Of a stretch of DNA of 35,930 bases, positions 4,972 to 35,930 are shown in pieces. The stretch comes from Saprospiraceae bacterium (GTDB lineage: Bacteria; Bacteroidota; Bacteroidia; Chitinophagales; Saprospiraceae), in the NCBI GenBank assembly GCA_020436935.1, contig JAGQWX010000021.1, forward strand, positions 45,383 to 81,312, given 5' to 3'. A program made the position numbers and the translations under genes. Position 1 is the stretch's first letter. Every line of letters begins with the position of its first letter. The notes beneath the pieces are model-generated. The model searched no databases. It worked only from the letters and a program-made list of their open reading frames with translations, and had not been told where the DNA came from.

Positions 4972-6300
4972 ATGAGGTCTTTGACTTCTTTAGTGCTATT
5001 GTCAATGATGGCAGTCCTGATTACTTCCTGTGGCACATCCAAAAAAACAAAAAAACAACCTCAGATTGTAAAGGCTGATGATGAAAAGGATAAAGATGTG
5101 CCAGCCAAAACAGACACAGTTGGCGTGGTAACACCGGATAAAAAGGATGATGGCGACAAAAAAGATCCTGACCAAACCAAGCCCTATAATTCAGATAAGA
5201 CATATAATGTTGCGCTTTTGCTTCCGCTTGATGCAGAGTCGGGAAGAATTGACAACAATTCCAACTTGCGGTTTATTCAATATTATGGAGGAATCAAACT
5301 CGCTGGGAAAGATCTGAATACTGATGGAGCAATCATCAACGTCAGCGTTTTTGATAGCAAGGAATTGCTTAACACCAATATGTTTCCTACACATCTCGAT
5401 TTGATCATAGGCCCCTATGCTTCAGCATCATCAGAATCTTCTAAAGCAGAGCTCCAAAAAATCATTGAATTCGGAAAGAAAAACAAAATCATGGTTGTTT
5501 CTCCTTGGTATTCCAATAGCAAGGCGACTGAAAACAACGAATATTACATCCAGATAAAACCAAATATCAGGGAACATTTCAACAAAATTGTTCAAAATAT
5601 TTACGATGAAGGAAATCAATCGAAGGTCGTGCTGGTAGGTAGAAACAACAACAATGATTACAAGTATCTGGAATATTTTCAATCTGTAGCAAAGGCATAT
5701 TCAAAAGGCAAGAGCAAAGATCAGCCCTTAGATCAGATCCTGATTAATGAAAAATCACTTTTTAATGATGATACCGTTTTCACTTCTAAAATTCAGCAAG
5801 GAAAATCTATTTTCGTTTTTCCGAATTACTCATATAATGATGAGGAATATTTGAGAAGTGTTCTTACCAAACTGGTGGGCGAAAAAGGAAGTAAAAATGT
5901 CACTGCTGTTGGTTTACCCATTATCCTTGAAAGCGAAAAGATTGGATACAATTTGTACCAGGGACTGAATATGGAACTCGTAGTTCCGGATTTCATTGAG
6001 AAAGATGATCATAGGGTCAGACAATTTACAAAATCCTACTATGAATTGTATCGAACAATTCCCGCATCCGACGCCTTTGAGGCCTACGACTTATTTAGCT
6101 TTATAGGAGAGGCGCTGTCAAAATATGGCAGGGATTTCATCAAAAAGATCCATTATATGGGTGATTATTATCTTCAGACATCTTTTGATATCAAGCCGGT
6201 TTATGAAGAAGGTGATGACTCCTTCTCAAAAGTGCAGTTTTACGAAAACAAACACCTGGACATCATCAGATTCAGAAATGGTGCATTTGAACGAATCTGA
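4972..6300 (+). CDS. Lipoprotein with a periplasmic-binding (type I) fold
   Basis: The protein has 442 residues from the ATG at 4972. This start gives a lipoprotein signal: MRSLTSLVLLSMMAVLITSC with a lipobox ending at Cys20. An in-frame TTG at 4906 would add 22 residues before the signal and is rejected. A charged, low-complexity Lys/Asp linker (about 23-75) follows. The rest resembles the type I substrate-binding fold of branched-chain amino-acid ABC receptors: KTYNVALLLPLDAES, GGIKLAGKDLN, LDLIIGPYASASS, KIMVVSPWYS, then a second lobe with DAFEAYDLFSFIGEALSKYG. Related Bacteroidota proteins often pair this fold with LysM repeats, which are absent here. No ABC permease or ATPase is adjacent, so a cell-envelope binding role is as likely as transport. 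trmH starts 11 bases after the stop. Confidence 0.72.
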   Translation: MRSLTSLVLLSMMAVLITSCGTSKKTKKQPQIVKADDEKDKDVPAKTDTVGVVTPDKKDDGDKKDPDQTKPYNSDKTYNVALLLPLDAESGRIDNNSNLRFIQYYGGIKLAGKDLNTDGAIINVSVFDSKELLNTNMFPTHLDLIIGPYASASSESSKAELQKIIEFGKKNKIMVVSPWYSNSKATENNEYYIQIKPNIREHFNKIVQNIYDEGNQSKVVLVGRNNNNDYKYLEYFQSVAKAYSKGKSKDQPLDQILINEKSLFNDDTVFTSKIQQGKSIFVFPNYSYNDEEYLRSVLTKLVGEKGSKNVTAVGLPIILESEKIGYNLYQGLNMELVVPDFIEKDDHRVRQFTKSYYELYRTIPASDAFEAYDLFSFIGEALSKYGRDFIKKIHYMGDYYLQTSFDIKPVYEEGDDSFSKVQFYENKHLDIIRFRNGAFERI

Positions 6301-10386: not shown

Positions 10387-10701
10387 TTATACAAGGTCGG
10401 AATCTTTCCAGGATTTTTTGCCCTCATTGAAATCAGCCCTATCGAACTCCCTTAGGTCCAGATAGTCAGCCTCATCGTTCTGCTGCATTTTGCGTGCCTT
10501 GGTTTTTGCAATAAAAATCTTTTTGGCCAATGATATCATTAGAAAAATTGTAGGTATTAAAGCCCATCGCAGACCTGGAGTAAAATTAGAATTGATGATG
10601 TTTAAAGCAATGATAATCATCAACGTCTTAAAGACTTCAAAAATGATATAGTTTCTGTCAGTTGGTTCTAATCTTACCCTATCTCGTCTTCTATTTCTCA
10701 T
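10387..10701 (-). CDS. Small membrane protein of unknown function
   Basis: The protein has 104 residues. A basic N-terminus (MRNRRRDRVRLEP) is followed by two hydrophobic helices (about 22-40 and 46-60) and a charged C-terminal tail (EADYLDLREFDRADFNEG). The positive charges before helix 1 and after helix 2 predict both ends in the cytoplasm. I recognise no family. Its ATG overlaps the stop of the upstream membrane protein gene by one base (TAATG), which indicates translational coupling, and both follow the penicillin acylase gene. Confidence 0.65.
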   Translation of the reverse strand: MRNRRRDRVRLEPTDRNYIIFEVFKTLMIIIALNIINSNFTPGLRWALIPTIFLMISLAKKIFIAKTKARKMQQNDEADYLDLREFDRADFNEGKKSWKDSDLV

Positions 10702-11081
10702 TATATTTTTATTATTCCTTTATATATCAAATCAACCATAAATTTCGATAAATAATTTCCACTTAACCCAGCTATTCCACCAAACAAGCCAATTACCAGA
10801 CCAGTTATAACATATATCGGAAGTTTGCCGGTGTCATTGAATAAGGCAGAAATAATACCCGCAATACTGACATTCGCTCTATAATCAAAGTAAAAAGCAT
10901 AGGCCATCCAAAGGCTGGCACAAAAAACAAGCGGAATAAAAAAGGCATGGTAGTTTTTTTTAAACAAAAATAGTCCCAAAAAAAAAGCAACTATTCCCAG
11001 GGCATACCATGGAAGAAAACTTCCACCCAAGGCCACAATATTAAAAAGTAAAAAAGCCCACAATAAGGTGCTTAATTTCAT
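10701..11081 (-). CDS. Small multi-pass membrane protein of unknown function
   Basis: The protein has 126 residues and is almost entirely hydrophobic, with about four membrane segments (about 5-20, 24-41, 46-66 and 92-115) and a short basic C-terminus (YKGIIKI). I recognise no family. It begins nine bases after the stop of the penicillin acylase gene and overlaps the next gene by one base. The three genes therefore look like one operon; whether the small proteins act with the acylase is not shown by the sequence. Confidence 0.65.
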   Translation of the reverse strand: MKLSTLLWAFLLFNIVALGGSFLPWYALGIVAFFLGLFLFKKNYHAFFIPLVFCASLWMAYAFYFDYRANVSIAGIISALFNDTGKLPIYVITGLVIGLFGGIAGLSGNYLSKFMVDLIYKGIIKI

Positions 11082-11090
11082 GATATAAGA

Positions 11091-13478
11091 TTAGGGTGTT
11101 ACACGATACAGCTTACTTTCTTCATTCATCATATCTTCAGCCGAATGTAAAAAGTTTATTTTAAAATAATCCTTTTGGCTCCAGGTCGATATGAAGTCCT
11201 TATAATGTTTGCTTGCAGGATTACCACTTTGGCCACCCGGATATACACCCCAGGCTTGTGGTTGATCCCCCAATTCAACAATCATGCGCCAGGAAGGCCC
11301 CCAATCGGGTCTTTGGGCATTGAGACAGTCCTCATTACCACCCAGGCTAAGATTATTTACAGAGAATGATGGAATCCGTAAAATATGAGGGATATCAACA
11401 GATCTTGACGCCCCGTAAGTCTTCATGGGTTTCCCTGCTTCCTCGTCAAGTACTTCCTTAATGGCGAGATTGACGATGTCACCTAAATCCTCAACAAACT
11501 CTGTTGATTTCAAGTCAAATATTGGATGTTTGGGCTGAGACATCAGCATTTCCAGTCGTCGCTTGTTTGGCATAGCAGTCTCATATGTTGCATTATTGGT
11601 AAGTTCATCATAGGTGAGTGTTCTAATATTTTCATATATTTTATCAAAGATGACAGCGGCCTTTTCATCGGCATCGTAAGTAAAATCCCAATTTTCAAGC
11701 AATTCATCGTAGGCATTATACTTTCCTTCACTGTATTTTAGAATCAAAGGAACTACATTTTCTGCCTTCACTGAATGATTGTCTCTCTGAAATGCTTTGA
11801 AGTCCTTGGAAGAAAACTTATATCCTTCATTTAGAAGTCGATTGATTCTAAGGTTCCTGTAAGTCTCAAAATTGCCTCCCAAAAAATAGGGATATGTGGC
11901 ATCTATAGATTTTTGATTTGCTGAGCTTAAAAAGTCTGATGCAGGATTAGTCTGATGAGGCATATCTTCAAAAGGAATATATCTATTCCAAAGATTTTTA
12001 CTGCCGCTCCCCTCTTCAACAAAGACCCCATCATTGACACCTCTTGCCGGAATGTTCCCCATTACTCTTAGTCCAATATTCCCCAAATTGTCAGCTGTGA
12101 GAATATTTTGTGCAGGAGAACTGTACACCCTCAATTTTGCATCTAGATCCTGAATGTTTTTACTTTGCATAATGTCTGCAAATACGGTCACATCAAAAGG
12201 AGTTGTTCCGTCAAGTGCAACCCATTGGACAGCGAGATCGTTTTTCAAATCTTTGGAATAATACTTTATGGGGCCATACATGGTGAGATGTGTAGTATCA
12301 AATATGCTCTTCGTCCCTTTGATTTTTATTTCTGTTACCAGTTTTTCAACTTCCATATACTTTCCATCATACAAATATTCCTCCCTCTGGCCATCTTTCC
12401 ATTGAATTTTGATCAAATCTGCAACATCAATTGACCCATTGGTTTCTGCCCAGGCTACATCTTCGTTGAATCCGATCAAAATGCCTGGTATACCTGGAAA
12501 TGAGACACCATAAGCACTGAAGTCTGTGGCCGAGATTTGCAATTCATACCAAATGGAAGGAAGGTTGAGTCTAAGATGTGGATCGCTGGCAAGAATGGGC
12601 TTACCTGTTGCACTTTTAGATTTTGTGACCGCCCAATTGTTGGAACCAATACCATCAGGTGAACTGTACAGTTCTTTCATATTTATAGGCGATACAAGAA
12701 CTACACTGCTATCAGCATTTGTTTGGCTAAGCTTGGATATTACCTTTACGGGAGTAGTTATTACCGGGATATCACCAGTAAAGTCTTTCGAAAAAAGCTC
12801 ATTATACAGCTCTCCCCCTAAAGCATTCAAGGCATTGGTTTGCAAAATATCAGTAGTTTTTCCTGAAAGCACATCACACATATACAGATAAATCGAGGCG
12901 ATGTCTCTTACTTTGAAAGAAGATGGCTCAAAATCAAGGAGCTTATATTCTATGGGATAATCTTTGGGCTTGAGTTGGGCAATATAATCATTGACTCCCT
13001 TCAGGTAGCTGTTTAATCTGACCATCACTTTTTCCTGACGTGCCCAGTTTTCAACTGCACGGTCACCAGCAAGGCACATGCCTTTTCGAAGTGCAGCGCG
13101 ATCCAATTCCAGCCCTCTTTCTCCAAGCACTTCTGCTACCCTACCTGAAGCTCCTCTTGCGATCATTTCCATTTGGAATAAACGATCTCTGGCTTCCATA
13201 TACCCCTGGAGGTACAATGCGTCATTAATGTTATTTGCAAAAATGTGGGCAACCAGCCTTTCGTCTATAAGAACACTCGAAACTGAATCGGTGGAAGCAC
13301 CCGCCAACTCCTCAGGTAATTTTCGTTCTGCATTTTGCCATACTCCGTGCCATGGATTCAAGAACTTACCAAGAGGTGGTAGTGGATTCGACTTAATACT
13401 CAGATTTCCATTTAGAAATAAAAGCAAGCCCGTGCCGATCGAAAATGTAATTAGAAATAATATTAAGTTTTTAGTCAT
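11091..13478 (-). CDS. Penicillin acylase family N-terminal-nucleophile hydrolase
   Basis: The protein has 795 residues, a typical length for the S45 family. A membrane-anchor or signal-like N-terminus (about 3-24) precedes the alpha chain, with LQGYMEARDRLFQMEM..RGASGRVAEVLG (about 90-119). The spacer ends at GIGSN, giving the presumed autocatalytic cleavage before the nucleophile Ser279 (SNNWAV). After it come the family blocks ILASDPHLRLNLPSIWYELQ and GIPGILIGFNEDVAWAETNG, and the final RMIVELGD..QAWGVYPGGQSGNP. Such enzymes hydrolyse amide bonds of beta-lactams, N-acyl homoserine lactones or acylated amino acids in the periplasm; the substrate here cannot be told. The C-terminal KHYKDFISTWSQKDYFKINF fits the family end. 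It heads a three-gene operon. Confidence 0.9.
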   Translation of the reverse strand: MTKNLILFLITFSIGTGLLLFLNGNLSIKSNPLPPLGKFLNPWHGVWQNAERKLPEELAGASTDSVSSVLIDERLVAHIFANNINDALYLQGYMEARDRLFQMEMIARGASGRVAEVLGERGLELDRAALRKGMCLAGDRAVENWARQEKVMVRLNSYLKGVNDYIAQLKPKDYPIEYKLLDFEPSSFKVRDIASIYLYMCDVLSGKTTDILQTNALNALGGELYNELFSKDFTGDIPVITTPVKVISKLSQTNADSSVVLVSPINMKELYSSPDGIGSNNWAVTKSKSATGKPILASDPHLRLNLPSIWYELQISATDFSAYGVSFPGIPGILIGFNEDVAWAETNGSIDVADLIKIQWKDGQREEYLYDGKYMEVEKLVTEIKIKGTKSIFDTTHLTMYGPIKYYSKDLKNDLAVQWVALDGTTPFDVTVFADIMQSKNIQDLDAKLRVYSSPAQNILTADNLGNIGLRVMGNIPARGVNDGVFVEEGSGSKNLWNRYIPFEDMPHQTNPASDFLSSANQKSIDATYPYFLGGNFETYRNLRINRLLNEGYKFSSKDFKAFQRDNHSVKAENVVPLILKYSEGKYNAYDELLENWDFTYDADEKAAVIFDKIYENIRTLTYDELTNNATYETAMPNKRRLEMLMSQPKHPIFDLKSTEFVEDLGDIVNLAIKEVLDEEAGKPMKTYGASRSVDIPHILRIPSFSVNNLSLGGNEDCLNAQRPDWGPSWRMIVELGDQPQAWGVYPGGQSGNPASKHYKDFISTWSQKDYFKINFLHSAEDMMNEESKLYRVTP

Positions 13479-24459: not shown

Positions 24460-27400
24460 TTACCTAATCTTTATAAATCTGTGTGTAAACACTTCATTGT
24501 CGTTAATAACTACACGGTATGAGTAAGCTCCTACCGGAAGACTTTGGCCATTAATGGTAACTTCATGGTCTCCCGCATCATAATCTGATGTCCTTGAAAG
24601 AATCAGTTGGCCAGTTGCATCGAATATCTTCAAGTTTACAGAAGACTTTCTTACCAATTCCATTCTGAACGATGTTTGATCTACAAATGGGTTTGGATTC
24701 ACCTGGCTAACAAATGAACGTTTCTGTACTGCACCATTGATGATTTCGAGCGCTCTTTCTGAAAGCGATTCATCATAAGCTTCAGCACTAAGTCTATTGG
24801 TGAATTGTAATCCTCCAACTTCGTTTTTGCCAGTATTTAAGGTCAGCATTGGATTTCTCTCACCAAAGATATGACCCTGCTGATCAAACCATGAAACCAA
24901 AACTTCATCATCCACAATGTTAACTGCATCACGATTGACGATTGCATTCTCTACCAATGCCGGTTTTCCGGATTCGCCTGTAAAAGTAAGAGAGAATTGA
25001 TAACCACTAAGTTTTACATCTGACTCAGGGTATAGGTCAATTACTTTATTGCCTTGGCCATCAACTCTTGACTTTTGTAGCAGTCTTATTGGCTCACTTC
25101 TTTGTTGTGTCGAATTACCCAATGATGTATATGAATCATTGACGTCACCTACTTTAATGGCCGTATAGTTCACAATTTCATTTTTGGACAAATTCTCCAA
25201 CTGTATGACCTCTTCAAACGGCCATGGATTTTTCGAATCAACAAAGTTTATTCCTCTGCGAACAAACCTCCAGGCATTGGTTCTTGGGAATGTATTGTAA
25301 ACTTCCAGAATGACTTTCCTGATATCAACAAGGTCATTAACACTGATCTTCTGGTCGTTGTTGGCATCGGCGGCGATCAATTTTAAAGGATCATTTAAAT
25401 CCTTCAATCTCAAAACATGCCTTTGAATATGGAGCAAGTCAAGTGTATTAACACCTGCTCTGACTTCATCTTTCTTAGTAGGTGCTACCAGGTAATCATC
25501 ATACATAGGCAATTTGTCAAATTTATACTTCATATCTGATGAAGTGTAATCTTTCGACATTACTTGTGAACTGATACTGATATCATACTTATTGATAGGG
25601 AAGTTGGTTGAAGTGCGGATATCTCCGCTCACAGTTGCCTTACCTTGATTGTCAATACAGTAGTTGGTTGGATCTATTAGGGTCAGAATAATTGGACAGG
25701 TTTCAACATTTCCAGATTTATCTGTTACATATAGATCGACCCTGATTTTTGTTTCAGGATAAGTAATCATCAGATCGCAATTGATCAGAAGTGAATCGTC
25801 GAGTACATTTTCAGAGAATGACAACTCAACCGGCTCACCACAATTGTCATATGAACCTCTATCAAAATCAGAGGACCAAAGCCACCTGTCTTCACCATTT
25901 TTACCTATACTTGTTGACAACTCCTGATAACAATAAGCAACTGGTTTTTTACAATCTTTTACAGTAACTTTTTGATGGCACTCAGCCACGTTACCGCAAA
26001 TATCTCTTACTGTCCATATAACCAGGTGCTCACCTCTTGGGAAACTTCTGTTGTAAGTTTTTCCAGTAGACTCAAAATCTATTATACCATCGCTGCCCAA
26101 ATCTATGGCATAAGAATAGTAGAGATATGCTTCAGCCGTACAATCATCCTCTGCATTCAATGTATAACTAACCTGACCTATGCAAGTCGCATCATCCGCA
26201 CACATTTCGAGATCAGTGCAGTTCAAAATTGTTGGTTTCTCGCCATTCTTTACATCAATCCACTGGTGATACTCCCAAGTTTCAGCGCTACAGTACTTCA
26301 TAAGTCTCCATACTCTCTCAATCTTGTAACAACCTTCCTTCTTGTCTCCCCATATCCAATCAGAATAGTTGATACCAATAGATTCACAGAACCTTGGATC
26401 AATGATTGGTCTTCCTGTTATGGTGGTGTCTGTCTGCGCATCGCACGATGTTACTTCATAATCACACGGCCAAATCACCCCATCATTAGGATTGTCGTCA
26501 TCGCAGTCAGTGTCTGTTATGAAGAATTCAACACATGGAATTATCTTAATCCGTTGAACAGCCCTTGAAGAAAGCCCTTGTAGGTCTGTTGCCACGAAAG
26601 TTCTTGTGATCAGATACTCATCGCATAATTTGTCAATTTTATATGTCTCAACGACTTTTACATCACACGCATCCACGGCATAACCGCTATAGCCAACTAC
26701 AGTCTCAAACCTTTCAAAAGGATTATCTTCATCGAAAGCTTCATCATCGCTGCAAATCGGCTCTAAACCTATCACTTCCTCTCTGGTCGTTCTGTCGGTA
26801 TAAACTCTACCAAAGTACTTGCCCAAATCTTCTTTTACATACTCGTAATAGCAACTGACAGTCATGTCTGTTGGTGGCACTAATATTGGAGCAGTCTTAT
26901 CTTCAACCTTGACGATACCCCAGGTTTCATTGTATTTGTCAGCAACTCCGTTGACAACATCACCGAAGACACCTGAATGGTTTGCGTCATCCCATACCCT
27001 CAACCACACTTTGACTTCCTTTCCTACGTCTTCGCAACAGAATGTAACAAATTTTCCACTGTCAGTGTCTGCTGCATTGTCAAGAACATGGCCGTCATTA
27101 TTATATGTCAGATTGTTATTGTATCCATTTACACCGAGGTTCTTACATGCTGGAGATTGATCGTCTCTTCTGATCTCCATATGTATTGCGTTACAGTTGT
27201 CGTATGAGCCATTGTCAATGTGGAATGGATAAAGTTTGGCAAAGCCGTCTTTTATCAAATCCTTATCGTTGGTAAGACTTAGTGTCGTATATTCTCTTAC
27301 AATAGCAACAGGCGCATTGTTATCAATCACACGGATGATCAAAGAATCCAGGGCGATATTCCCACAGCAGTCAGTAGCACTGTAGTAAATGGTGTGATAC

Positions 27401-30400
27401 CCTTCGATCAAATCATATAAGATATAATCTTTGCCTTCCTTCACCATTCGACCCGATGATGACCAAACATTGTAGATGTTGTGTATATCTGAACAATTGT
27501 CCGTTATAGTAGGGACAGGAAGTTTATACCAGCCAAAACACTCAGTTCCGGAAATTTCCGCTGTTGTATCCTTTCCTGCATTGATGGCAATGACTGGCGC
27601 TTCTTTATCTTCAATTTTAATCAATTGCTCGAAGTATCTGAATTCTCCTGTACACCAGTCGAAAACGGTCCATTTTCTAATAATTTTTTTGCAAGATCCA
27701 TCTTCACATAGATTAATGATCTGATCATCAAATACATATCTGATGTTGAAGCATCCTGTTCCTCCAGGAACTCCTGTTACGGTTGTATCAGGTGCTCCGT
27801 TTGCAAGTCTGGCCCAATCTCCATCGCATGACAGGGATGGATTTTCGATTCCATCGTAATTGGCCGGAGGGATAACGTCATTCACTGTTGGCCTGGTGAA
27901 GCATATGGTATCTACTGCTTCCCCAGTTCTGCCAAATCCATCTATAGCTGTCCATTTTCTGTAGATCACATGACTGAATGGCCCCTGACATACATATGAA
28001 ACAATGCTGTCTTTCAGATATAAATCAACCAGGGTACAGTTGTCAAGACTGTCAACAATGTAGTGACTATCGGACACTTTTTTCACAATAACAAGATTCT
28101 CATCTGTTGGGAAACCAATCACTTCCGGATCAGTAACATCTCCACACATCAAAGTATCTTTTCCTCCAATGAGCATCGGTGCAATCTTATCTTCAAGTAG
28201 CAAATACCCCCAGCATGAATTGTTATTGGCTGTGTCTTTTATTTCATATATCAGCTTCTTACCAAGGAATGTCCTATCCAGAATAGTGTCATTAGGTATT
28301 TGGATGGTTTTTGCCTCATCCAGATAAACGCAAACTATATATAGATCCGCACACGCATATCCGTTTCCTGTGAGGAACATGTCTGCAGAAAGATAAATCT
28401 CACATTCTTCTGTGACAGAATAGTTCAACTGTTCCAAACATGAAAGATCTGCTTTACCATTGGGTGCTAAAACTGTTACCACAAAACTACAGGTATCCAT
28501 GTTTCCTGATATATCTCTGGCAATGTAGAAAAGTTCGTGTACACCAATTGTGAATGGTAAACCTCTACCAAATCTAGGGTTATGGAGTGAATCAATAATT
28601 GGGTCACCACAATTGTCTGTTGCAGAGATGACAAAGTCTATTAAAGTATCGCATTGGCCCAAAGGCAATTGAATCACCATATCCATCGGGCATTCTACAA
28701 AGGTAGGTGCAAGACCATCTAAAACTGTGGCATTAGGCTCACATATTGTCTCATTTCCACAGGCATCCACAAGCAGTATTTGGAATGTATTTCCCTGATT
28801 TAATGCACTACAATTGAAATCATCCAGGTTGGAACTTGCTGTGACCAGATTACAATCTGTATAGGAACTAACAATGTCCTCAATTGGAGGTGTTGTGGTT
28901 GCGTTGCCACTGTCGTCAACATTGATGGTAATGTCGTTGCATGTTAAAGACATTGGCGGAACAGTATCAACAACGAAGATGGTTTGGACAAAAGTAGCTG
29001 ATGTACCACAGGCGTTGGTAGCGACATACGTACGTCGAACAAAAATCGTATCATTCACACAACCTAATCGACCTACACTGTCGACTGTTTCTGTCAACAT
29101 AATATTTTCGGCCGGAATCTGTCCACAAGCTCCAAAAGCTTCCACACTTTCAGCAGGTGGAACCTGATCAAAACATGTAACCAAAGTATCTGGGCTCGTA
29201 ACCGTAAAATATGGGGTAACTGTATCTACTACGCTTATAATTTGCACCACACGTGTTGAATTCATACACGAATCTGTAAAAGTATAAGTCCTTGTAACAG
29301 TAATCGTGTCTCCAATGCACCCGGTATTTTCAGATATACTTTGCTGGACCGTAGCAGCAATAGGAGTAGAAGAGCAATTGTCTGAAGCAGTCAAATTCAA
29401 AGGTGCAGGTACATCTGCAAGACACATTACCAAAGTATCTGGAGCTGCACCAGAGAAAACCGGGGATATTGTATCCCTAACTGTAATTCTCCATGTTGTT
29501 GTGTCTCTGTTACCTACGGCATCACTAAAAATCCACCTTCTGATTACCAGATACTCACAATCTCTAATTTTAGTTGTTTCATCAATTGGAGATACTGTAT
29601 TGTTGCCACCACATTCATCACTGGCAGAAAGATTCTGTTGGGCTGGAATCTCATCAAAACACATAACTAATGTGTCAGGGAAATCAGCAGGCGCTGCTGG
29701 AGCTATGTTATCAGCAATACTTATCTGTTTAGATACTACTAATGTGTTGCCACATGAATCTGTAAATGTCCAAACTCTGTTGACAATGAATGGATTTTCA
29801 ACTGAACCATTACCTCCAGGTAATTGAGTATCAACCGGACTTACTGTAATATTACCATTGCAATTATCAAACGCTGTTAAATTACTTGGCGGAGGCACCT
29901 GACAACCAACAACTACATCAGAGGTATCAACTCCGTTCAAATTTTGAATTACAGGAGCAATATTATCTACAACCCTGATGAATTGAGTATCTGCAATTGC
30001 GTTACCGCACTGATCACTTACTCTCCAAATTCTTCTAATAACCAATGTATCACCTATGCAACCTGATCCACTGGTTGTTGTACTGTATTGAATTGGATTT
30101 ACCTGGCAATTGTCTTCTGCAGTCATCACAGAAGCAGGATATTCACTTGTATCTGCAACACAAGTTAAGAATTGATCCTCAGGAGCTGGTGAAGTAAATG
30201 TTGGATTGACATTGTCCAGAACTTTTATCTTTTGCGTTACCGTAATGCCATTGTTACATGCATCTCCGAATGTCCACGTCCTTGTAATAATGAGTGAATC
30301 TCCCGGACAACCACTTCCAACTGTATTTGTAGTGAAAATGGCATTGATCAGGCCTGAACAATTGTCATTTGCAGTAAGAACAGCAGCTGGGTACTCAGAT

Positions 30401-33400
30401 GTGTCTAAAACACAATCTAAAAATACATCAACAGGTATGGCTTCATTGATGACTGGCTCGACAGTATCTTTCACATAAATATTCTGCATCATAACAGACG
30501 TATTCATACAAGCGTCTGTCAATTTATAGGTTCTAACCCATCTTTGTCCCAAGGCATCAGTACATTGGGTATTAACTACTAGACTATCAGAAAATGTTGG
30601 TATGATAGGCATTCCACTACAATTATCTGTACCCGGCACTATAGTAGGTGGAGGCAATGGTAGACAATTGATGGTTGTATCGCCTGGAATACTTGAAGTA
30701 AACATTGGTGGAACATTATCCACCACATTTACGATTTGAACAACTGTCGTCATATTAAATGCACTATCAGTAAAAGTCCATGTCCTCGTAAATCTGAGGG
30801 TATCCATTGGACAGCCGGCACCACCATTACTGGTAACAACATATGTGCTGCTTCTAAGTGGACCGCAATTGTCTGTTGCAGTAACCACTGGAGCTTGCAT
30901 CGTGTCCTGGGCACAAGAAACATTTACAGGCGCTGGTTGTGATGATGCAACAGGTGGAATGGAGTCAATGACTGTTATTTTTTGGGTATCTCTAACGGTA
31001 AAGCAGTTGTCTCTTACTGTATAAACCCTCTGAATCATGTAAGGGGAGGCTTTACTTCCAATACCCATTGGAGGTAATGTGACAACAGTATTCTGTAAAA
31101 TTGGAGAACCTGGAGTGCAATTTTCTATGATCTCAGATGCAGCATTTAAAGTAGTTTGTGCAGGAATTTCCGATTTGCATGTAAAATTCAAATCAGGTCT
31201 TGGAATAATTTGAGGTGGAATGGTATCATAAAAGAAATACCTTGTCTGAAGTGAATCTTTATTCCCACATGCATCGGTGAAAACCCATTTATCCAAAACC
31301 TCAAATGGCATGTTACCAGTCATTAATGATAGAGGATTATTTTTGTCAACCAAACAACCCGGCCTTGGCACTAGAGTTCTTGATTTCACGCCAGCTATGG
31401 TCCCTGAACAGTTATCGTTCGCTACAGGTAAATCAATTTGCTGATTTTGTATAACAAAATTAACAGCACAACCATAAATTAACTGCGTATCTGGCAAAGC
31501 AACAATAGGTAACACGGGTTTGATGGTGTCTTTTACAACTATCGTTTGACTAACTGAAGTATCAGGTAAACTTACTGCTGACCTATCAAAAGTCCATGTT
31601 CTAATAATAGTATCTGAGCAACCATTCTCAATAAATTGAACAACCAGTTGGCCCACCGATGTCAAACCACATCCATTTGACAATATAAGAGTGGGAGAAG
31701 GCACAGTGTCCGTAATACACATAACAAGTGTGTCTGCAGGTGGGTTTGGCACTTGTGGCATAGTTGTGTTATTAATGGTATCGACAGAAGTCGCCATACT
31801 CATATTACCGCAAGCATCTGTAAACGTCCATTTTCTGACCACATAAATTGGATTTGCCGGACTGCCTGGATTTGGCCCCATTTCATTTAAAGTATCCAGT
31901 GATACTGAATAAATCCCATTTACTCCTGTTGGGCTACAATTATCTGTAGCTACAAGTGGCATACCTGCCACAGTATCTGACAAACAAGGATATGAAACTC
32001 CTAGAGGTGCCATTGGTGGCGTTGGTGCTTGTTGATCATTTACTGTAATAATGTGGTTAAATGTGGCACTATTTCCACAAACATCAGTTGCTACATAAGT
32101 TCTGGTAATGGTATACCTGTTGGCACATGTCTGGTTTGAAACGACATCAGCCATTACAGTAACATTCACTAAACCACCGCATCCATCAGTGGCATTGATC
32201 GATGCCGTATTAGCTGGTGGTACATTTTCTGTACAACTTACTGTAACATTTGCAAGTGGTGTAATGACCGGTGGTGTTTGATCATTGACCGTAATGATTT
32301 GGCTAAGAGTGGACGAATTACCACAAAGATCTGTTGCAACGTATGTCCTGGTGATTGTATACCTATTTGCACAGGTTTGATTTGTAATTACGTCTGGCTG
32401 AACTGTTATAGTCACTGTACCACCACAACCATCCGTTGCCATAACTCCAGCTTCACCAGTAGGTGGAACATTGTTAGCACAGCTTACTGTTACATTCGCT
32501 GGAATAGATGAAATAACTGGCGGGGTTTGGTCATTAACTGTAATGATTTGACTTTGGGTAGAAGAATTACCACAAAGGTCAGTTGCTACGTATGTTCTGG
32601 TGATGGTGTACCTATTTGCACAGGTTTGATTGGTGATTACGTCTGATTGAACGGTAATGTTCACTGTACCACCGCATCCATCGGTTGCCATCACAGCCCC
32701 GGTATTGGAAGCGGGCACAAGATTGGCACAGCTGACCGTAACGTTGACCGGTATTGATGAAATAACTGGCGGAGTTTGGTCATTTACTGTAATAATTTGA
32801 CTCTGAGTGGAAGAATTGCCACAAAGATCAGTCGCTACGTATGTTCTGGTAATGGTATACCTATTTGCACAGGTTTGATTGGTAATTACATCTGACTGCA
32901 CAGTAATGGTTACTGTACCGCCGCAACCATCGGTTGCTACTACAGCTCCAGTATTGGCGGCAGGCACTAGGTTGGCACAGCTTACTGTAACGTTGGCAGG
33001 AATAGTTGAAATTACCGGAGCAGTTTGATCATTTACTGTGATCAGCTGGATACATCTCGAAACATTATTACATGTGTCTGCTGCCTGGTAAATGCGGTGT
33101 ATCAGAAAACGGTTCGCACACGTTTGATTTGTTATAGAATCCTTGACAAAGGTAACATTTGCCGGACCTCCCTGTGGGTCTGTGGCCATTACCAGAGCTG
33201 TATTTGGTGCTGGAACCAGGTTTGCGCAACTTACAGTAATCGGTGCAGGGCAGGTAATTGTTGGTGCTTGGGTATCTGCATTAATTCTAATGGTTGCAGT
33301 GTCCATACATCCCACTGCGTCAGTTACAATTACAGAAAACGTAGTGTCAGTTGTCGCTGTAATATTTATTGTTGGAGTTGTTTGTCCTGTGCTCCAGACG

Positions 33401-33408
33401 TAAGACAA
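24460..33408 (-). CDS. Giant HYR-like repeat, dockerin and T9SS sorting-domain protein (3' part of an interrupted gene)
   Basis: The frame spans 2,982 codons from a TTG at 33408 and is open back to the TAA at 33469-33471. That TTG lies inside a PKD-like domain (LSYVWSTGQTTPTI) and no ATG precedes it, so this is very likely the downstream part of one gene with the 746-codon frame before it. Domains: the PKD-like domain; about 17 HYR-like repeats of 79-100 residues (about 45-1480) beginning D..PP and holding up to four Cys, plus two more divergent ones; a Cys-rich region with further repeat-like units; a dockerin-like segment (about 2645-2700) with LLHIQRHVL and AADANNDQKISVNDLVDIRK; a beta domain; and a T9SS type A sorting domain (about 2900-2982) starting NPNPF and ending HRFIKIR. 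No signal peptide is present on this part. It is presumably a cell-surface or released adhesin-like protein. Confidence 0.8.
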   Translation of the reverse strand: MSYVWSTGQTTPTINITATTDTTFSVIVTDAVGCMDTATIRINADTQAPTITCPAPITVSCANLVPAPNTALVMATDPQGGPANVTFVKDSITNQTCANRFLIHRIYQAADTCNNVSRCIQLITVNDQTAPVISTIPANVTVSCANLVPAANTGAVVATDGCGGTVTITVQSDVITNQTCANRYTITRTYVATDLCGNSSTQSQIITVNDQTPPVISSIPVNVTVSCANLVPASNTGAVMATDGCGGTVNITVQSDVITNQTCANRYTITRTYVATDLCGNSSTQSQIITVNDQTPPVISSIPANVTVSCANNVPPTGEAGVMATDGCGGTVTITVQPDVITNQTCANRYTITRTYVATDLCGNSSTLSQIITVNDQTPPVITPLANVTVSCTENVPPANTASINATDGCGGLVNVTVMADVVSNQTCANRYTITRTYVATDVCGNSATFNHIITVNDQQAPTPPMAPLGVSYPCLSDTVAGMPLVATDNCSPTGVNGIYSVSLDTLNEMGPNPGSPANPIYVVRKWTFTDACGNMSMATSVDTINNTTMPQVPNPPADTLVMCITDTVPSPTLILSNGCGLTSVGQLVVQFIENGCSDTIIRTWTFDRSAVSLPDTSVSQTIVVKDTIKPVLPIVALPDTQLIYGCAVNFVIQNQQIDLPVANDNCSGTIAGVKSRTLVPRPGCLVDKNNPLSLMTGNMPFEVLDKWVFTDACGNKDSLQTRYFFYDTIPPQIIPRPDLNFTCKSEIPAQTTLNAASEIIENCTPGSPILQNTVVTLPPMGIGSKASPYMIQRVYTVRDNCFTVRDTQKITVIDSIPPVASSQPAPVNVSCAQDTMQAPVVTATDNCGPLRSSTYVVTSNGGAGCPMDTLRFTRTWTFTDSAFNMTTVVQIVNVVDNVPPMFTSSIPGDTTINCLPLPPPTIVPGTDNCSGMPIIPTFSDSLVVNTQCTDALGQRWVRTYKLTDACMNTSVMMQNIYVKDTVEPVINEAIPVDVFLDCVLDTSEYPAAVLTANDNCSGLINAIFTTNTVGSGCPGDSLIITRTWTFGDACNNGITVTQKIKVLDNVNPTFTSPAPEDQFLTCVADTSEYPASVMTAEDNCQVNPIQYSTTTSGSGCIGDTLVIRRIWRVSDQCGNAIADTQFIRVVDNIAPVIQNLNGVDTSDVVVGCQVPPPSNLTAFDNCNGNITVSPVDTQLPGGNGSVENPFIVNRVWTFTDSCGNTLVVSKQISIADNIAPAAPADFPDTLVMCFDEIPAQQNLSASDECGGNNTVSPIDETTKIRDCEYLVIRRWIFSDAVGNRDTTTWRITVRDTISPVFSGAAPDTLVMCLADVPAPLNLTASDNCSSTPIAATVQQSISENTGCIGDTITVTRTYTFTDSCMNSTRVVQIISVVDTVTPYFTVTSPDTLVTCFDQVPPAESVEAFGACGQIPAENIMLTETVDSVGRLGCVNDTIFVRRTYVATNACGTSATFVQTIFVVDTVPPMSLTCNDITINVDDSGNATTTPPIEDIVSSYTDCNLVTASSNLDDFNCSALNQGNTFQILLVDACGNETICEPNATVLDGLAPTFVECPMDMVIQLPLGQCDTLIDFVISATDNCGDPIIDSLHNPRFGRGLPFTIGVHELFYIARDISGNMDTCSFVVTVLAPNGKADLSCLEQLNYSVTEECEIYLSADMFLTGNGYACADLYIVCVYLDEAKTIQIPNDTILDRTFLGKKLIYEIKDTANNNSCWGYLLLEDKIAPMLIGGKDTLMCGDVTDPEVIGFPTDENLVIVKKVSDSHYIVDSLDNCTLVDLYLKDSIVSYVCQGPFSHVIYRKWTAIDGFGRTGEAVDTICFTRPTVNDVIPPANYDGIENPSLSCDGDWARLANGAPDTTVTGVPGGTGCFNIRYVFDDQIINLCEDGSCKKIIRKWTVFDWCTGEFRYFEQLIKIEDKEAPVIAINAGKDTTAEISGTECFGWYKLPVPTITDNCSDIHNIYNVWSSSGRMVKEGKDYILYDLIEGYHTIYYSATDCCGNIALDSLIIRVIDNNAPVAIVREYTTLSLTNDKDLIKDGFAKLYPFHIDNGSYDNCNAIHMEIRRDDQSPACKNLGVNGYNNNLTYNNDGHVLDNAADTDSGKFVTFCCEDVGKEVKVWLRVWDDANHSGVFGDVVNGVADKYNETWGIVKVEDKTAPILVPPTDMTVSCYYEYVKEDLGKYFGRVYTDRTTREEVIGLEPICSDDEAFDEDNPFERFETVVGYSGYAVDACDVKVVETYKIDKLCDEYLITRTFVATDLQGLSSRAVQRIKIIPCVEFFITDTDCDDDNPNDGVIWPCDYEVTSCDAQTDTTITGRPIIDPRFCESIGINYSDWIWGDKKEGCYKIERVWRLMKYCSAETWEYHQWIDVKNGEKPTILNCTDLEMCADDATCIGQVSYTLNAEDDCTAEAYLYYSYAIDLGSDGIIDFESTGKTYNRSFPRGEHLVIWTVRDICGNVAECHQKVTVKDCKKPVAYCYQELSTSIGKNGEDRWLWSSDFDRGSYDNCGEPVELSFSENVLDDSLLINCDLMITYPETKIRVDLYVTDKSGNVETCPIILTLIDPTNYCIDNQGKATVSGDIRTSTNFPINKYDISISSQVMSKDYTSSDMKYKFDKLPMYDDYLVAPTKKDEVRAGVNTLDLLHIQRHVLRLKDLNDPLKLIAADANNDQKISVNDLVDIRKVILEVYNTFPRTNAWRFVRRGINFVDSKNPWPFEEVIQLENLSKNEIVNYTAIKVGDVNDSYTSLGNSTQQRSEPIRLLQKSRVDGQGNKVIDLYPESDVKLSGYQFSLTFTGESGKPALVENAIVNRDAVNIVDDEVLVSWFDQQGHIFGERNPMLTLNTGKNEVGGLQFTNRLSAEAYDESLSERALEIINGAVQKRSFVSQVNPNPFVDQTSFRMELVRKSSVNLKIFDATGQLILSRTSDYDAGDHEVTINGQSLPVGAYSYRVVINDNEVFTHRFIKIR
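28969..33276 (-). repeat. Tandem array of 17 HYR-like protein repeats
   Basis: Seventeen consecutive units of about 79-101 residues each begin with D(Q/T/N/S)..(P)P and end with a strand such as QIITVN, with a conserved C-terminal half (R.Y or R.W, then TD.CGN). Most have Cys residues at about positions 18, 36, 54 and 70 of the unit. Two weaker units (DTVPPMSLTC and DGLAPTFVECP) continue to about 28470. The spacing and pattern are close to the HYR domain, an Ig-like fold used in adhesins. Confidence 0.8.
32038..33030 (-). repeat. Near-identical 249/246-bp DNA tandem repeat (4 units)
   Basis: Units run 33030-32782, 32781-32533, 32532-32284 (249 bases each) and 32283-32038 (246 bases). The first two units differ at only six of 83 encoded residues. 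The encoded block ITNQTCANRYTITRTYVATD is shared exactly by the first three. The similarity is visible at DNA level as well, so these are recent duplications, while the other repeats of the array have diverged. Confidence 0.9.
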
Positions 33409-33468
33409 AGGCTCTACACCTCCTTCGATTTGAGGCGTTAAGGTGGTAGAAAAATTACCACAAACGTT

Positions 33469-33471
33469 TTA
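33469..33471 (-). other. In-frame TAA interrupting the giant gene
   Basis: The TAA lies between NGEDT and NVCGNFSTTLTPQIEGG. Both flanks are in the same frame: the stop at 33471 and the TTG at 33408 are exactly 21 codons apart. The next 20 codons are open and fit directly onto the PKD-like domain. No ATG, promoter box or ribosome-binding site is visible between the stop and the downstream frame. Confidence 0.85.
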
Positions 33472-35709
33472 AGTATCTTCTCCATTAATAGTAAGTGATA
33501 CAAGGGGGTTGGACAAATTAAATACCAAACATACTGCGCCTTGAACGCCCAAATCATTTTCAAATGCAAGAGTAATAGTATCAAAGCCTACTGATCCGGG
33601 CACTGGGAAATAAGTAAATGACAATGAATCAGGGTTTATTCTGATGTTTTGTGTCTGAGGGCCCAATTTACTTGCCTTTAATCTTATTGTTTCTTCAGAA
33701 CAACCTTCAAACGTTAGTGCTTGTGTAAAAGAGTCTAAATTACAAATGGCTGGTATAACTATAAGGTTCGTTGCAAGATTGGTTGAAGGATCTTTTGCAA
33801 ATAGTTTGCTGGTGAAAGAAGTGAGATAACCAAATGCACCTCCATCATTTGTTCCTACTACCTGTGATGCAGTGAAGTTTACATCGGATTCAATTGTGTT
33901 GGTTCCTGCTGCCAAATCAGCATTGGGAATTGTGATCGAAAAATAACCTGCAAGGCCCGGTACTGCAATCGGGCTACCTCCATAAGCAACTCCATTTAAT
34001 TCCAAACTTGCAAGACCAGCAAGTGGAATCACAACCTGTACTGCATTGGTCGCTCCATTGAACTTATTAAAAGAAATCTTTCTTGATCCACGGCATTCGC
34101 TGATTGAACCTACCAATCCCATGTCGACTTCATCTGTACTAATTCCAGATATATAATATACATAAGATGGAATGGAAGTTCTGATATATGTAGGTGTACC
34201 TGCAGGTTGATTCGGGTTGTATTGATAAAACTGACCTCTATCCAATGTAACTATAGGCGTAAGACTACCATTGATAAAAACCTCTGTAGTGTCTTCAACT
34301 GCCACTATAATTGCATATTCCTGCTTACTAATTGCCAAAGAACTTACGACAACGTGATCTGTTCCCAGGTTTTTAACCGGAATCAAAACATCGACTCCCC
34401 CATCCCTTTTCGGCGGATTGGATCCATCTGTACCCACTTGAGCGGTGTGCATCGACCCTGAAGTAACGGCAATGTCCTTATCAGCAGTGACCATTACTCC
34501 ACTTACTGTTGCATTGATAAGGGGATCTCTTAATAAATAAGTTTGGCCCCTGTCAAGCATAATACTGAAAGGAGATGTCAAGGTTCCTGCACCTCCATTA
34601 GACAATGGATTTGCAAAATTAAAATTAATAGTGGTGTTATCTTCTGAAGCCATTACTGAGATAAAGTGTGCTTCAGTATTTGTTACCGTTGAACTTGCTG
34701 CAACTCTGGCATTGGTTTGAGACGCAACAAAAAATGATTTGCCTAGACCTTCCGAGTTCTTACCTGTCACGATAAGTTTATTGAAGGCTGACTCATTGCT
34801 GTAGGTAACAAAAATCGGAACAGAAGAGGTTATAAGTATACCCTTACCATTTTCAATAACATTTGAATTTGCTGTTTGAGTAAAGCCCGAAGCATATGTT
34901 ATTGGAATATTCAATACAGTCCCTGCATTTACGCTATAATTTTGAGAAAAGCCGTCGAGATTGGTAATGGTAATATTGGCTGTTGGAAATAGAGTACTTA
35001 TATTAAATGAAACAGCGCTATTGAACAATGTTGGACCAGTGGTTAATTCATTATTTGGTGTTGTAGGATCATCAGCCGTAGGAATCATTCTCCATACAGG
35101 CGGAAAATAATAAGACAAGGCTTCTTCGCAATTCAGATCCAAAACATTTTCTCCCTGACCGATACAATCAACATCCATTTCATCAATCAAACCATCTCCA
35201 TCATCGTCCATGCCGTTACCGCAGATTTCAAAACCTGTGCTTGTGGGAAGATTGTAACAAGTCACCTGAGCATTCCATCCTTCTGGGTTAGAAGCCACAT
35301 AATCAGAATTATAAGCAACATCAAAAATTGTAGCCGGATTTGATACAAATTTAAATGTCAAACAAGTTTCAGTGCTGTAAAATGAACTTCTGATGTTGGT
35401 ATTACCAGTGAAAACTCCGATCAGGGGGGAAGATGAATTTGGTCCATCATAAACATACATGGAGTCTACTGTCTTAATGGTAAACTGGCTGAATATAACC
35501 CTAATACCTTGGTTTGGACTTGATGAGCAATAAGTATATTGCAAGTCACCATTTCCAGAACCTGGGCCTATGACATCATAGTCACTATTGCCCCCTAAAT
35601 CCTGGAAGGTTGAGTTACACGTGACAAACGTTTGTCCAAGTGCCTCAAATGAAAAGCCTGAAAATATTACAAAACAGACTGCATAAAAAAACTTAAAACT
35701 CCACTTCAT
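33469..35709 (-). CDS. Secreted CUB-like and IgGFc-binding-like protein (5' part of an interrupted gene)
   Basis: The protein has 746 residues to the TAA. It has a signal peptide (MKWSFKFFYAVCFVIFSGFS, cut after LGQ near residue 26). A CUB-like domain follows (about 27-150: FVTCNSTFQDLGGNSDYDVI, then TVDSMYVYDGPNSSSPLIGVF). A calcium-binding-like loop comes next (GNGMDDDGDGLIDEMDVDC). The main body (about 200-620) matches the IgGFc-binding N-terminal family: ILITSSVPIFVTYSNES, AHFISVMASEDNTTI, LLRDPLINATVSGVMVTADKDIAVTSG, DHVVVSS. A beta domain ends VSLTINGEDT at the stop. It has no T9SS sorting domain of its own, which the downstream frame has, so the two were probably one protein of about 3,749 residues. 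Binding to IgG or other ligands is not implied by the family name. Confidence 0.82.
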   Translation of the reverse strand: MKWSFKFFYAVCFVIFSGFSFEALGQTFVTCNSTFQDLGGNSDYDVIGPGSGNGDLQYTYCSSSPNQGIRVIFSQFTIKTVDSMYVYDGPNSSSPLIGVFTGNTNIRSSFYSTETCLTFKFVSNPATIFDVAYNSDYVASNPEGWNAQVTCYNLPTSTGFEICGNGMDDDGDGLIDEMDVDCIGQGENVLDLNCEEALSYYFPPVWRMIPTADDPTTPNNELTTGPTLFNSAVSFNISTLFPTANITITNLDGFSQNYSVNAGTVLNIPITYASGFTQTANSNVIENGKGILITSSVPIFVTYSNESAFNKLIVTGKNSEGLGKSFFVASQTNARVAASSTVTNTEAHFISVMASEDNTTINFNFANPLSNGGAGTLTSPFSIMLDRGQTYLLRDPLINATVSGVMVTADKDIAVTSGSMHTAQVGTDGSNPPKRDGGVDVLIPVKNLGTDHVVVSSLAISKQEYAIIVAVEDTTEVFINGSLTPIVTLDRGQFYQYNPNQPAGTPTYIRTSIPSYVYYISGISTDEVDMGLVGSISECRGSRKISFNKFNGATNAVQVVIPLAGLASLELNGVAYGGSPIAVPGLAGYFSITIPNADLAAGTNTIESDVNFTASQVVGTNDGGAFGYLTSFTSKLFAKDPSTNLATNLIVIPAICNLDSFTQALTFEGCSEETIRLKASKLGPQTQNIRINPDSLSFTYFPVPGSVGFDTITLAFENDLGVQGAVCLVFNLSNPLVSLTINGEDT

Positions 35710-35930
35710 GTTCAGAGATTATCTTTTGAAACTTTAGTGAAGTTTTCTTACTGTTTGAGACCTTAGAATCTATGGTAATGTATCGAAAATTTGTAGTTGG
35801 TCTTATTCCGATCTCAAAACACAACACGAATGTACAATAATGGCTTTTCACTATAAACTTATAGACATACCTAAAACATAGTATAATTCATAGAACTTTT
35901 TATTTAATATTTTATAAATTGATATTTAAT

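Follow-up and report, generated by a model that had tools for sequence, protein, structure and literature searches.

A giant predicted T9SS surface protein gene divided by a single in-frame TAA codon in a Saprospiraceae draft genome

Giant surface proteins exported by the type IX secretion system (T9SS) of Bacteroidota, such as SprB-like and HYR-repeat proteins, are the closest described counterparts of the gene examined here, which has in common with them a signal-like N-terminus (recognized by eye), a long array of repeat domains, and a C-terminal type A sorting domain. The gene differs from them in being interrupted by one TAA codon in the assembly. Surface adhesins often vary by on/off switching. 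Premature stops are also on record in the phylum: in the passages of PMC8400371 that concern gldB, a premature stop caused by a single mutation in this gene is reported for Flavobacterium psychrophilum FPS-S11B, an isolate without gliding. The likeness is that of a single-mutation premature stop in a Bacteroidota strain; the difference, on what those passages say, is that gldB is a gliding motility gene, whereas the gene here encodes a presumed exported surface protein with no known phenotype. According to the part of PMC11017572 on internal stops, assembly errors account for many of the pseudogenes with internal stops in public genome assemblies, and low coverage makes this worse. Our locus resembles the pseudogenes described there, real or spurious, in that a single in-frame stop interrupts a gene that is conserved otherwise; set against that part of the paper it shows no notable difference, the real and the spurious kind being separable only by reads. 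Literature searches on in-frame stops or readthrough in Bacteroidetes gave no like case among the matches listed, those on Saprospiraceae, the HYR domain, and gliding gave nothing on point among the matches listed, and those joining premature stops, sequencing errors, pseudogenes, and metagenome-assembled genomes found nothing.

The window, i.e., the whole 35,930-nucleotide stretch analyzed, corresponds to bases 45383 to 81312 of an 81,312-base contig from a draft genome of 5.8 Mb (181 contigs, 97.4% complete). Its relevant features, in the direction of translation, are as follows.

33472..35709, minus strand: upstream part, 746 codons, ATG start at 35709 (ORF listing and translation)
35635..35709, minus strand: signal-peptide-like N-terminus (read by eye from the translation)
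35335..35520, minus strand: CUB-like stretch (E 0.00068, 20.4 bits, under the Pfam cut-off of 21.4)
33865..34752, minus strand: IgGFc_binding domain PF17517 (E 1.5e-33)
33526..33553, minus strand: match to a Bacteroidota-type promoter-like pattern (3 in the window versus 2.3 expected)
33469..33471, minus strand: in-frame TAA (Leu sense codon opposite in the same-genus orthologue, G005)
24460..33468, minus strand: continuation of the frame downstream, 3,002 codons and the terminal stop (translation)
33406..33408, minus strand: TTG opening the called ORF 24460-33408, 2,982 aa (Ile codon opposite in G005)
32276..33039, minus strand: tandem array, 3.1 copies of a 249-bp unit with 81% matches, overlapping the best HYR_4C match; the TAA lies outside
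28471..28710, minus strand: HYR domain PF02494 (Pfam match)
24469..24699, minus strand: T9SS type A C-terminal sorting domain (TIGR04183, 30.3 bits, cut-off 23; PF18962, 27.4 bits, cut-off 27)

The preliminary description of this DNA had read the ORFs 33469-35709 (746 aa) and 24460-33408 (2,982 aa) as a single gene split by one TAA. Both indeed share one minus-strand frame, which picks up at 33468, directly past the TAA, and continues for 3,002 codons without a stop to 24460; the one-gene reading is further supported by an orthologue that is continuous over the column and by 33 of 33 other stop-free matches in the family (see below). The TAA is located about one-fifth of the way along the gene, with ~2.5 kb separating it from the contig end; the 9 kb of frame show no further lesion. 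Neither Rfam, at the gathering threshold, nor a tRNA scan gave any hit in the window, and an exact pattern spanning the junction had no match in viral contigs.

The TIGR04183 match spans residues 2924 to 3000 of the downstream part, which also contains eight HYR_4C stretches at E 0.001. The preliminary description had placed a signal peptide only in the upstream part and a T9SS domain only in the downstream part. The sorting domain is borne out by both profiles, and the signal-like N-terminus upstream is an assignment by eye; inspected in the same way, the downstream part shows no signal-like start, though it ends in the sorting domain. The ancestral whole gene is thus predicted, from its sequence features, to have encoded a giant surface protein exported by the T9SS. 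The SprB repeat (PF13573) had no match in the window proteins at E 0.001 and none in the window junction piece at E 0.5, while in G005 the junction piece scored 21.5 bits, under the cut-off of 28, and none was listed for the 2,442-residue frame at E 0.5; no match above the cut-off places the gene in the SprB family. The last 1,001 codons had 20 further matches in the window's own genome (contigs C77, C177, C118, C123, C125, and others), none with an internal stop, and these probably make up a large family of surface proteins. The 249-bp tandem copies are similar enough for assembly collapse or copy-number change. A structure prediction of the G005 junction region, run without alignment, had a mean pLDDT of 37 and the model was discarded.

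The preliminary description had proposed comparing the stop position with orthologues. We used a 397-residue junction query with X at the stop, searched in 60 relatives, 6 genomes of the genus (own included), and 398 genomes of the family. Four of the five other genus genomes were without a match at E 1e-12, and G005 was the only same-genus orthologue found. Its match to the query is stop-free at 68% identity, with a leucine codon at the TAA column; in the full alignment there is no gap nearby, and because of this the stop has the look of a base substituted in frame. G005 thus supplies the mark of a pseudogene that was looked for, an orthologue in a relative with a sense codon at this position. 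The G005 junction frame comprises 2,446 codons and reaches the contig end, and the last 1,001 codons of our gene match (60%) a 1,017-codon frame that opens at the edge of another G005 contig and has a similar C-terminus. Altogether, 1,653 + 984 of the 3,002 stop-free codons are covered by alignment to the two G005 frames, which end at contig edges, and hence their openness is more than chance; the ~365 codons between the two aligned parts correspond to the G005 contig gap or to alignment gaps. The two contig pieces are what a single gene would look like if only the assembly had broken it.

In the family sample, 23 of the 398 genomes, own genome included, match the junction query at E 1e-20. 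The other matches number 33 in 22 genomes (E up to 1e-20), all of them without a stop, and 18 extend past the stop column. All 17 that were aligned (G196:C16, with no locus, was left out) have a sense codon at the column, which is Leu in 5, Thr in 4, Val in 3, Ile in 3, Ser in 1, and Asp in 1. The placement of the column is reliable for G005 and less tight for the remaining homologues, at 27 to 40% identity; in the search, two of the 17, G360 and G093:C53, extended no more than two or three residues beyond it. With G005 and six homologues aligned, the sequences enter, a few residues past the column, a domain in which one Cys is invariant and most of the sequences carry a GG-PPY-Y-W-STG-like stretch, so that the stop sits at the entrance of this domain. 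Among the 60 relatives, G026 has on contig C22 (L006, L059) an 11,111-codon open frame of unusually long tandem architecture, with six matches to the junction query among the matches listed, all in the part on the IgGFc-binding side.

To look for decay downstream of the stop, pN/pS was computed against G005, giving 0.27 for the upstream part, 0.38 for the downstream part on the junction contig (first 60 codons included), 0.48 for these first 60 codons past the stop, and 0.35 for the C-terminal part, in a two-genome comparison with synonymous sites near saturation and changes that cannot be assigned to one branch. By this measure the parts on either side of the stop were evidently maintained as protein-coding sequence for most of the gene's history. 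The higher ratios downstream could hint at relaxed constraint, although repeat-domain regions may diverge faster anyway; the ratios neither show nor exclude a recent relaxation, and they do not date the stop.

Conjointly, these comparisons point very strongly to one ancestral giant gene that is nonsense-interrupted in the assembly, either by a real recent mutation or by a base error. Three other accounts of the interruption have to be weighed against it. That the parts are two separate genes, the second with a start of its own, is a reading to which we give practically no credence. It could draw on a TTG 21 codons and an ATG 55 codons past the stop and on the promoter-like match at 33553-33526. 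The preliminary description was mistaken in considering the TTG the only initiation codon available downstream, as GTG 33315, ATG 33306, and ATG 33189 are also there, yet the G005 codons opposite TTG 33408 and these three are, in this order, those for Ile, Ile, Lys, and Leu, so that none of the four candidates within 130 codons is kept as the second start of a two-gene operon. Its statement that no promoter is visible holds in that none was found beyond chance or conserved, and needs qualifying in that one pattern match exists; the TANNTTTG core of this match is not conserved in G005, the number of matches is at chance level, and the match is probably meaningless. A sigma-70-type scan of 33200-35930 likewise gave no excess (6 promoter-like sites versus 8.4 in shuffles). 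A conserved start or promoter between the parts, named in the preliminary description as what would speak against a single gene, was thus not found in the one orthologue, G005, whose continuity across the column contradicts the two-gene reading. A second part that lacks a signal-like start by eye and yet carries a T9SS sorting domain at its end also speaks against it. Programmed readthrough or recoding, by which a fraction of the ribosomes would continue through the TAA and yield the full protein, is very unlikely. The downstream frame is open and constrained, which readthrough would explain, but a recent change would leave the frame just as open. Moreover, TAA is the commonest normal stop of the genome (it ends 500 of 893 long coding segments sampled), the RNA past the stop folds little better than shuffled sequence (z -1.0, with 26 of 200 shuffles equalling or exceeding it), and the column is free of stops in all 17 aligned homologues. 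Still less probable is a real, tolerated TAA providing dosage control of a costly 3,750-residue protein, with a short secreted IgGFc-binding fragment and a giant adhesin made by low-level readthrough. Programmed phase or population-level on/off switching is no more credible than programmed readthrough, despite being a frequent mode of variation in surface adhesins: the gap-free G005 alignment near the stop indicates a substitution-like lesion, the only tandem array in the window (32276-33039) falls short of the site, and no reversible mechanism is visible. There is no direct or inverted repeat of at least 10 bases within 300 bases on either side of the stop, by a repeat finder that omits runs of 1- to 3-base units, of which only short A/T runs were seen by eye near the stop. 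Stop usage, folding, and repeats therefore lend no sequence support to the readthrough and programmed on/off variation that had been listed among the possible causes.

The other two causes listed there, a nonsense mutation (fixed or varying between strains) and a base error, both remain plausible. We give a real recent mutation, fixed or at strain level, about an even chance; a simple strain polymorphism at the stop is possible and is counted here. A consensus or base error in the 181-contig draft, with the organism's gene intact and the TAA a wrong base or the base of a minority strain, is a serious prospect at somewhat under even, and only reads can separate it from a real mutation. The draft status of the genome and a frame that is otherwise open, with no second lesion in 9 kb, are consistent with such an error, as is the share of spurious pseudogenes in public assemblies given in the part of PMC11017572 mentioned above. 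Against it, the stop is not at the very edge of the contig, and breaks of this sort are few: the window's own case and one frameshift-like candidate in 1.418 Mb. The survey behind this count covered same-frame neighboring coding segments in 1,418,069 bases (81 stretches, 24% of the window's own genome) and yielded 72 pairs, in 22 of which the first ATG is at least 15 codons past the stop. With limits set after the list had been seen (both parts 150 codons or longer, ATG/GTG/TTG absent within 15 codons of the stop, and a score of at least 0.1 past it), 11 of the 22 dropped out for having an ATG/GTG/TTG within 15 codons, 4 more for a part under 150 codons, and 6 more for scoring below 0.1 past the stop; the one pair that passed all three was that of the window, the candidates being sorted by start codon, length, and coding score only. 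Internal stops of this kind are rare in the genome, which is compatible with a true mutation or with a stray wrong base.

The proposed course of events would begin with a single frame encoding a giant T9SS surface protein, in which a base change presumably converted a sense codon into TAA. If the TAA is real, only a 746-residue product without sorting signal would be made, the remainder staying untranslated; this product would enter the periplasm without delivery by the type IX system, and the gene would be null in the strain, which would have lost one of its many giant surface proteins. Of the 33,732 possible single-base changes in the gene, 1,306 create a stop, and a gene of this length is hence a large target; the size of giant adhesin genes exposes them to nonsense changes and base errors alike. 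The locus is likely either a conventional inactivated copy or a sequence error of one base; it does not represent a novel gene organization. The case matters little by itself, its wider point being that ORFs lying side by side in a draft genome may be pieces of a single disrupted gene.

Two further pairs of open segments were observed. The frameshift-like candidate of the survey (L137, G000 C104:180001-200000), on the plus strand near base 5328, consists of segments of 268 and 162 codons in different frames. Within the window, the only other neighboring pair of open segments of at least 100 codons in the same frame is at 10701-13478 (minus strand), where a penicillin amidase is followed by a 126-aa ORF; because an ATG lies three codons past the stop, this pair looks like two ordinary genes.
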